From positions 19,161,398 to 19,225,397 of the forward strand of contig CP099841.1 of NCBI GenBank assembly GCA_030062745.1: DNA of 64,000 nt, given 5' to 3'. Of this stretch, positions 10,074 through 12,280 are shown in pieces. Below the pieces are notes generated by a model that was not told where the DNA came from, made no database searches, and saw nothing but the letters and a program-made list of their open reading frames with translations. Origin of the DNA: Capitulum mitella (taxonomy: Eukaryota; Arthropoda; Thecostraca; Pollicipedomorpha; Pollicipedidae). Positions within the stretch are counted from its first letter, which is position 1, and the number at the start of each line of letters is the position of its first letter. The position numbers and the translations under genes are program-made.

Positions 10074-10180
10074 TAGGGATTCCGTTCACTAGTTTTAGAG
10101 GCCGCAGGACACGAATGGCTCGCAGCGTCCGGAAGTCGACCTTGGAGGTCAACTGCTCGTCGGCTAGCAACGTTACCAGT
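10074..10180 (-). CDS. cac: cac alternative exon 5C: third IS4 variant
   Basis: 107 bp, acceptor CTCTCCTTTCAG, donor GTAAGTAGC. It encodes [17 protein letters not shown] followed by [20 protein letters not shown]. This S4 is closest to the general Cav2 form ([15 protein letters not shown].GIPS), with the same five gating charges. The S3-S4 loop is two residues longer than in 5A and 5B. The phase is identical to those exons, so it can replace either. S3-S4 loop length and S4 packing are known to tune voltage dependence in calcium channels, so the variants probably gate differently. Confidence 0.93.
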
Positions 10181-10268
10181 CTGAAAGGAGAGGGGTCACT
10201 AGTCATTCTACTGGCTAAACTTGCTGGCTAGGCACTCCCGGACGTGACTGGTGGCCGCGGCTGCCCTA

Positions 10269-10325
10269 GAGGACACTAGTCGTTAGCTGGTCTACGTAGG
10301 AGTCTAACGACTAACTCTAGTCCTC
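10269..10325 (-). promoter_or_regulatory. Intronic RNA hairpin upstream of IS4 exon 5C
   Basis: On the transcribed strand the arms are GAGGAC (10320-10325) with GTCCTC (10269-10274), and TTAGTCGTTAG (10304-10314) with CTAACGACTAG (10276-10286), pairing 10 of 11. The loop is about 17 nt and an asymmetric bulge separates the two stems. It lies about 90 nt upstream of exon 5C. The 3' arm contains CTAAC, a good branch-point match about 103 nt from the acceptor, so folding could hide it. A role in exon choice is inference. Confidence 0.5.
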
Positions 10326-11660
10326 GGCTGCTGTGGACGAAAGGAGGGGGTTTAGTTTAACTTTGCTTATGATTGCCAATATATTCGCAGATAATAGATT
10401 AACATTATTTCAAAATTTCCTGTGTGTTGGAAATTAGTCGCTAATGAAACCAGTGCGTTGCCAATGCCAAGGAAACGTGGATTCAAAACAGAATTTTTGG
10501 CGAAGAGGTAACACTTCCTTTGTTAGTCCTGTTTTAGTTGCAGGATTTTGAGCAAATCAAGAAAAGACATTTGGAAAGCGAGGAAGAACTGAAAGATTTG
10601 TTACTGTTGTGCCAAAGATAACATCTGCGCGGTGCCTAAGCGGTTTATATGTTTTTTGAAGACTCCCTGAAAAGGAAACGTTCTGCCGATGTAGGGCAGA
10701 GCTTTTTCGAAAAGCTTCCGCCTACCAAACAAAAGCAAACTTGACTCACAATAGAAGCATGGGCAGAGTCTCATAAGCAGGACTGAGAAATGCAAAAAAA
10801 AACACGTTTTGGAAAAAAATATGGCAGATTTCACCACCGAATCACTGGCGTTCTAGGGAGGGGATCTCGGGGCCATGACCACGCTTTCTTTGAAAAAAAG
10901 AAGGAACAGCATAACTTCGAGCCTCTTTTTTCGACGGCGATCACAAAGTTTTGTTTTCGAAAAATACGTTTGTGTCTTTAAAAGTGCAAAACGCCAAAAC
11001 CTAGTTACTGTAATACGAGAAAAACAATGTTTGGGAAAAGACTATGCACCACGGGTATCCTAACTTTCTTGTATCCCCCCCACATCAGTATGCTATCGGG
11101 ATCTGCTCGTGCAGCAAGTACAATTATTGGAGAATGACAGAATAACGGTACCAATGGGGATTTCGCAGGTTGGACCCCCGGCTACGTCACTGATGTCCAG
11201 CCAAATCTGGACAACGAAATTTGGAAGCTTGGAACGCTTTAACGAGAAAAAATATCATCCAAATGTACCACTACTGGTGTTGCAACTATATATTTCTCAT
11301 TTCTGTTTAAATTGTTATACACCACAGTCCCTTTGAATAATCGTAAACTGTAACATATGTTCTTATAGCGCCTTTCTGGCCAACAAGTATCCGTCATTTA
11401 AGACATGCAAGGAAAATAAAAAACAATGTTGGCAAACATTTGTTAATATTACCACGAGAAAAATGCCCAGAATTTTAGATTAAAAGTTGAATTTTTGCTT
11501 TCATAAATAGGCCGGTGATCTATACTAGGTTTACCGTGGTTGTCGATGTGAGGCGTAGGGTAGCCAGTTTTCTACATTTACGGTTGCTCACTGAGAATAA
11601 GCATCATAATATGCTGAATGTTCTAGTCTATGCTCTAACATAACTCAGTTTTATGGCTAT

Positions 11661-11670
11661 GTTAGTCGTT
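11661..11670 (-). promoter_or_regulatory. 10-nt element complementary to the 5C hairpin
   Basis: The transcribed strand reads AACGACTAAC, a perfect complement of GTTAGTCGTT in the 5' arm of the hairpin (10306-10315). It lies about 170 nt downstream of exon 5B. Pairing here would compete with the local hairpin, as in docking/selector models of mutually exclusive splicing. The match is short, so chance cannot be excluded. Confidence 0.35.
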
Positions 11671-11838
11671 CTTTTTAGGCCACTAATGACTGCCGGTGCA
11701 CCTGACGAGGCAGCTATGGCTTCAGCTAAGGTATTTACAAATCCTTCCCTAATCGTCTATGCATTAACAAATAATATGGACTCTAAACGGGAGGCTAACC
11801 CCCTAATCTATTCCCACGGACTAGGCTCCTTGACTTAC

Positions 11839-11939
11839 TAGGCACTCGCGATACGAGCTTTAAAGGCCTCAGAACCCGGAACGACCGGAGCATTCGAAAG
11901 TCTACGTCAATCCGAGCCTCCACAAACAGTGTCATGGTG
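11839..11939 (-). CDS. cac: cac alternative exon 5B: second IS4 variant
   Basis: 101 bp, acceptor GTTGTTGGCAG, donor GTAAGTCAA. It encodes [15 protein letters not shown] followed by [20 protein letters not shown]. The S4 helix is identical in protein to exon 5A. The S3-S4 loop differs, and many third codon positions differ, so the protein looks constrained while the DNA has diverged. Start and end phases match 5A and 5C. No stop, both splice sites intact: it looks functional, not a relic. Drosophila cac is reported to have two alternative IS4 exons; a third is unexpected to me. Confidence 0.9.
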
Positions 11940-12179
11940 CTGCCAACAACAGATCACAGAAGACTGTCAGCACAGGCACTTGGCGTCCACGCCGGGCGCG
12001 CTGCTCCGCCACCACGCGGCCGCCGAGCGGGCACGTGCACGCGGCGGGCGCACGTGCTGCGGTCCCATGCAGCATGGCAGATGGCCTGCGGTCGACAGGC
12101 TCCGCCGCGGGCGCCGCTCAGGAAGGCGGAGCTCCTCGGCGAACAGGCCGCTCCCGGCGCCGCGCGAGCACGCACTCAC
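11940..12179 (-). other. cac intron between IS4 exons 5A and 5B, 240 bp
   Basis: Short and very GC-rich (about 11990-12175), unlike the AT-rich introns around it. Donor GTGAGTGCG, acceptor GTTGTTGGCAG. Structure in this GC-rich spacer could hinder direct 5A-to-5B splicing; this is inference. Confidence 0.8.
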
Positions 12180-12280
12180 TTGGCACGCGCGAGACCAGTT
12201 TAAGTGGGCGCAGGACACGGAACGAACGGAGCATTCGCAGGTCAACGTTGATGGCCTCCGACATGAACACCGTGATAAGG
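12180..12280 (-). CDS. cac: cac alternative exon 5A: IS3-S4 loop and voltage sensor
   Basis: 101 bp, acceptor TCGCAG, donor GTGAGTGCG. With flanking bases it encodes [15 protein letters not shown] followed by [20 protein letters not shown]: the S3-S4 loop and the S4 helix with basic residues at every third position (R, R, R, R, K). It splices in frame to the S4-S5 exon at 6720 (A + GT = Ser). It is the first of three phase-equivalent IS4 exons. Since 101 leaves remainder 2 on division by 3, skipping it or adding a second variant shifts the frame. Its C-terminal 20 residues match exon 5B exactly, which marks a tandem exon duplication. Confidence 0.93.

Follow-up and report, generated by a model that had tools for sequence, protein, structure and literature searches.

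Three putatively mutually exclusive IS4 exons in the Cav2 (cacophony) gene of the barnacle Capitulum mitella: a probable enlargement of the arthropod IS4A/IS4B pair

The window analysed here, a stretch of 64,000 nucleotides at G000:C3:19161398-19225397 in the genome of Capitulum mitella, carries on its minus strand a gene whose product contains an Ion_trans domain. The protein assembled from its exons has 1480 positions, including a single placeholder X within the II-III linker. It is 89% identical to the Cav2 channel of Pollicipes pollicipes and 85% identical to that of Amphibalanus amphitrite, the top two of the 120 matches listed from 8000 candidates scored, and its best solved relatives are the human-type channels Cav2.2, Cav2.3 and Cav2.1, ahead of Cav1. 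By these matches the gene is assigned to the four-domain voltage-gated channels of the Cav2 (cacophony) type. A search of the same genome with the pore segment returned eight matches, two of them within the Cav2 gene; the next is 57% identical and lies on another contig (G000:C4:27007244-27007396), where it may represent another Cav or a diverged paralog. On the result of this pore-segment search, a second Cav2 derived from the whole-genome duplication reported for the barnacle lineage (PMC11331182, available portion) was rejected. No second close Cav2 was found in the genome with either the pore segment or the IS4 region as query, the latter search having a limited reach, as it returned only two of the three IS4 exons of the locus itself (5A and 5B, missing 5C). 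Elsewhere in the window no tRNA was detected, no Rfam family reached its gathering score, and the 9 open frames compared with Pfam, out of 69 with at least 110 amino acids, gave no match.

The gene model comprises 38 exons and alternative exons, to which E12, IVS2b and a 27-nt microexon are added, and the assembled exon chains translate without stops. The first coding exon, E1 (21860-21972; this and all other exons of the model are on the minus strand), ends at the donor ATATCCTT of an 8136-nt intron (13724-21859) with AT-AC ends, whose acceptor adjoins E2 (13618-13723, IS1). The AT-AC ends and the motifs ATATCCTT and TCCTTAAC, which include a U12-like branch motif, are the form known for U12-type introns. 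Upstream of E1, a 49-bp tandem repeat extends for 16.8 copies (54078-54872). The constant exons on either side of the IS4 cluster are E3 (13059-13198, IS2-IS3) and E6 (6565-6720, S4-S5 linker and IS5), and these are followed by E7 (6263-6325), E8 (5509-5660, domain I pore), E9 (5170-5273, IS6), two alternative 116-nt exons, I-IIa (4320-4435) and I-IIb (3697-3812), and then E11 (2673-2732) and E12 (1831-1929) of the I-II linker, the microexon of the same linker (1490-1516) and E13 (210-294), after which the gene runs on past the window start. The microexon, which was left out of the assembled query protein, encodes ALYMPKKKTG with its split codons, a peptide also present in the Pollicipes protein and, with one change, in the Amphibalanus protein P0003. 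At the provisional joint of E17 and E18 the Pollicipes protein has extra residues, to which an open stretch between these two exons corresponds. E28, outside the window (C3:19135497-19135562), is followed by a GC-AG intron with the donor gcaagt.

Between E3 and E6 lie three exons, 5A (12280-12180, 101 nt), 5B (11939-11839, 101 nt) and 5C (10180-10074, 107 nt), each of which codes for IS4 together with the preceding IS3-S4 loop; once the split codons on either side are counted, their peptides have 35, 35 and 37 residues. The initial annotation had placed all three exactly to the base, was right about their frames, their AG/GT sites and the lack of stops, and had correctly described 20 residues common to 5A and 5B and a loop two residues longer in 5C. 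It had also counted five gating charges in each exon, which holds for 5C, but the last 21 residues of 5A and 5B contain six basic residues, the sixth being found in SRVPS where 5C has NGIPS. The introns of the cluster, from E3 through 5A, 5B and 5C to E6, measure 778, 240, 1658 and 3353 nt. A repeat finder blind to protein placed the three copies in its first direct-repeat family (D1), and within a 184-kb region tblastn matched 5A to 5B with an E value of 6e-12 and to 5C with 9e-7, compared with 3e-4 for 5A against the gene's own domain III S4 and 0.23 for the best unrelated match; these values argue that the likeness among the three exons is more than chance.

The reading frame points to mutual exclusivity of the three exons. 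E3 terminates with two bases of a codon, and 5A, 5B and 5C share the same start phase and the same end phase ahead of E6; each has a length of 2 modulo 3, and therefore exactly one is needed per transcript. Of the eight possible inclusion patterns, the three that contain a single exon are open and the other five stop early: when two or three exons are included the stop falls 106 nt into the cluster, just inside the second exon by a few bases, and when all are skipped it falls at 193 nt. Transcripts with skipping or double inclusion would thus meet an early stop and would presumably be removed by RNA decay. These five patterns also provide a ready off switch, and the exons might be non-exclusive, with double inclusion or skipping serving deliberately as a poison switch that lowers Cav2 levels; this is improbable, for the Drosophila literature treats the corresponding pair, IS4A and IS4B, as mutually exclusive (PMC11828482, in the portion available).

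How one exon might be selected was considered for the putatively mutually exclusive cluster. Steric exclusion is unlikely because the introns of 240 and 1658 nt between the IS4 exons are too long. Control by paired RNA was dropped as a candidate because no docking-and-selector pattern was seen in positions 6721-13058 (21 direct-repeat families, 20 of them inspected, and 13 inverted pairs). Over the 300 nt before and the 230 nt after each exon, the three shared only a single match of 10 nt, apart from sequence where adjacent flanks overlap. Scored against the Cav2 gene's own sites, the donor of 5A is the third strongest of 39.

A single sequence pattern recovered 39 distinct IS4 units from 217 database proteins, 24 of class B (diagnostic residues RTLRAI...G) and 15 of class A (RMLRSF...SR); barnacles contributed three of the 39, and an IS4 unit was recognisable in all 120 best-matching proteins listed for the assembled Cav2. 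Both sets of diagnostic residues are present in the cluster. Hidden Markov models trained with the barnacles left out scored 5A at 73.8 bits for class A and 58.2 for class B, 5B at 79.1 and 53.1, and 5C at 46.2 and 65.1. Scored by parts, 5B belongs to class A in both loop and S4, and 5C to class B. These scores identify 5C as the arthropod IS4B exon, with orthologs in A. amphitrite (P0003) and P. pollicipes (P0002), 5B as the conserved IS4A exon, and 5A as the extra one. The initial annotation is thus supported in proposing a Cav2 gene with three alternative IS4 exons, with class A represented twice (5A and 5B) and class B once (5C) in place of one exon of each, but it had taken the wrong exon as the additional copy: 5B is the arthropod-wide form, sharing 29 of 35 residues with a Drosophila IS4A, compared with 26 of 35 for 5A. 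Among 120 matches listed of the 177 that passed, the closest to 5B were flies at 85%. Among 120 listed of the 197 that passed for 5A, the sole match at 93% was the A. amphitrite protein P0135 (32 of 35 residues), and the remainder reached at most 82%, the next best being Strigamia at that value; 5A has so far been seen only in barnacles. Fused models from Strigamia, Nymphon, a mite, krill and insects contain units of both classes, and the IS4A/IS4B pair is therefore old in arthropods. A third unit was sought in the 217 database proteins, of which 15 had two matches to the S4 pattern and none had three. Taken together, the locus very probably represents the cluster of mutually exclusive IS4 exons in the Cav2 gene of a thoracican barnacle, in which the arthropod pair has been enlarged to three.

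One of the three exons, most likely 5B, might have fallen out of use in barnacles and been kept as a silent exon. The acceptor of 5B has 4.0 bits, the weakest of the three, and ranks eighth from the bottom among the 38 acceptors scored for the gene. 5B was not seen in P0002, P0003 and P0135, the barnacle proteins among those listed, which are representatives of 90% clusters; P0135, a gene prediction, is missing several exons. Disuse nevertheless has a low probability, given that 5B keeps its residues in common with Drosophila IS4A, is free of stops, has intact splice sites and differs from 5A in its S4 by silent changes only.

In their S4 halves, 5A and 5B share all 19 residues and differ at 13 nucleotides, every one of them silent, an outcome that did not arise in any of 200,000 simulations started from each exon. 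Because an identical S4 is accompanied by 13 silent differences, the duplication that gave rise to 5A and 5B is judged to be old. A recent duplication was rejected, as the third base is retained in only 9 of 24 codons for the same residue, with synonymous sites near saturation. The loops differ at 9 of 14 residues, so that the exchange of 5A for 5B is almost purely a loop swap. The conservation of the S4 half marks 5A as an old extra copy maintained by selection.

The initial annotation derived the third variant from a common ancestor of 5A and 5B, which is likely for the S4 half, where 5A scores 49.7 bits for class A and 32.4 for class B; its loop half lies slightly nearer class B (12.5 bits, compared with 9.0 for class A). 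5A might accordingly be a mosaic that took its loop from an exon of the IS4B class and its S4 from one of the IS4A class through unequal crossing-over or conversion, instead of arising by simple duplication of IS4A. The loop of Amphibalanus 5A also leans towards class B, in bits (5.9 against 3.6) and in best identity (9 of 15 in class B, 7 of 15 in class A). However, a gap of two to three bits is weak, for the 5A of the window 9 of 15 is the highest loop identity in class A (Strigamia) and in class B alike, and the saturation of synonymous sites leaves the DNA unable to decide; a mosaic origin is considered unlikely. In a poorly resolved tree of 35 columns, the barnacle 5A units were paired (91/92) and 5A did not join 5B.

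The Cav2 gene has four further clusters of tandem exons, two exons at I-II, three at IIIS3, two at IVS2 and two at IVP (domain IV S5-P1), so that all five give 3x2x3x2x2 = 72 nominal combinations. I-IIa and I-IIb agree at 17 of 38 residues, and of all 38 acceptors scored for this gene, that of I-IIa is the weakest. The other clusters lie outside the window on the minus strand: IIIS3a (C3:19156933-19157045, 113 nt), IIIS3b (C3:19154787-19154899, 113 nt) and IIIS3c (C3:19153603-19153709, 107 nt); IVS2a, which is E25 (C3:19138769-19138879), and IVS2b (C3:19137734-19137844), both of 111 nt; and IVPa (C3:19133603-19133694) and IVPb (C3:19132575-19132666), both of 92 nt. I-II, IIIS3 and IVP are frame-locked in the manner of IS4, and IVS2 is not. 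Orthologs of IIIS3a and IIIS3b were found in Amphibalanus and Pollicipes, respectively, and the Amphibalanus proteins P0003 and P0135 together show both IVP classes. Two IIIS3 classes occur in isoforms of Daphnia pulex, and one class resembles units of Daphnia, Varroa and a scorpion. For IVS2 and for IVP alike, individual species of Anopheles and Penaeus have proteins of both classes. Drosophila proteins recovered by the patterns had one class each for IIIS3, IVP and IVS2, the IVS2 pattern having missed 22 proteins. A search of the 184-kb region for further hidden exon copies gave 1263 non-self tblastn hits with E below 20, of which those below 0.2 were inspected; only IVS2b was accepted (E 1.8e-4). 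A few other candidates, with E of 0.009-0.19, were simple repeats, matched the opposite strand or had no support.

Functions for the three exons can be proposed by analogy with Drosophila, where, in the portion available of PMC11828482, the choice of IS4 exon affects the voltage of activation and decides whether, at the larval neuromuscular junction, Cav2 arrives at the active zone, and IS4A channels were not detected in presynaptic boutons of that junction. 5C, of the IS4B class, would be the sustained high-voltage-activated form and serve fast release at presynaptic sites, and 5B, of the IS4A class, would serve other compartments with a different activation voltage. Because its S4 is the same as that of 5B and its loop is different, 5A would most likely shift activation voltage, kinetics or partner binding with gating charge unaltered. 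The earlier proposal that presynaptic calcium entry is tuned in three ways goes too far, since the bouton result suggests that the class A variants may act outside presynaptic sites. A broader reading, which is tentative and held at less than even confidence, regards the gene as a combinatorial Cav2 array: five clusters with their 72 combinations, both triplets made of two old arthropod classes and an extra copy (by scoring for IS4, by eye for IIIS3), a lineage with a reported genome duplication (PMC11331182, as above) and no second close Cav2 found, and in 5A and 5B a natural loop-only swap. If this reading is correct, comparison of 5A with 5B would separate effects of the loop from those of gating charge; a conserved third version with identical S4 and another S3-S4 loop offers a direct test of the role of the loop.

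The closest known system is the IS4A/IS4B pair of Drosophila cacophony, which, in the available portions of PMC11828482 and PMC12370356, occupies the same position in Cav2 with the A exon ahead of the B exon, as in the barnacle. The same class-diagnostic residues are found in both species, and IS4A likewise has one more charged residue than IS4B, an extra basic residue in class A. In contrast, Drosophila has two IS4 exons where the barnacle has three, no unit like 5A was seen among the Drosophila proteins listed, and both Drosophila exons have 99 bp in the available text of PMC11828482, unlike the 101, 101 and 107 nt of the barnacle, where 5C exceeds the other two in length by two residues. 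The same available text names only two sites of mutually exclusive exons in cacophony, the second of which, I-IIA/I-IIB, is present in the barnacle as the frame-locked 116-nt exons. This two-pair picture understates arthropod Cav2, judging from the IVS2 and IVP classes of Anopheles and Penaeus and the IIIS3 classes of Daphnia pulex. Exons 12a and 12b of invertebrate Cav3, which form a switch of the pore loop or turret (PMC9694082 and PMC7382465, available portions), are alternative exons for an extracellular S5-P1 loop, like IVP of the barnacle, but they are located in domain II whereas the IVP pair is located in domain IV of Cav2. Three IS4 exons were not reported in the titles and abstract openings listed for the literature on Cav splicing. 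The barnacle cluster is not a new kind of system; it extends a known splicing switch.
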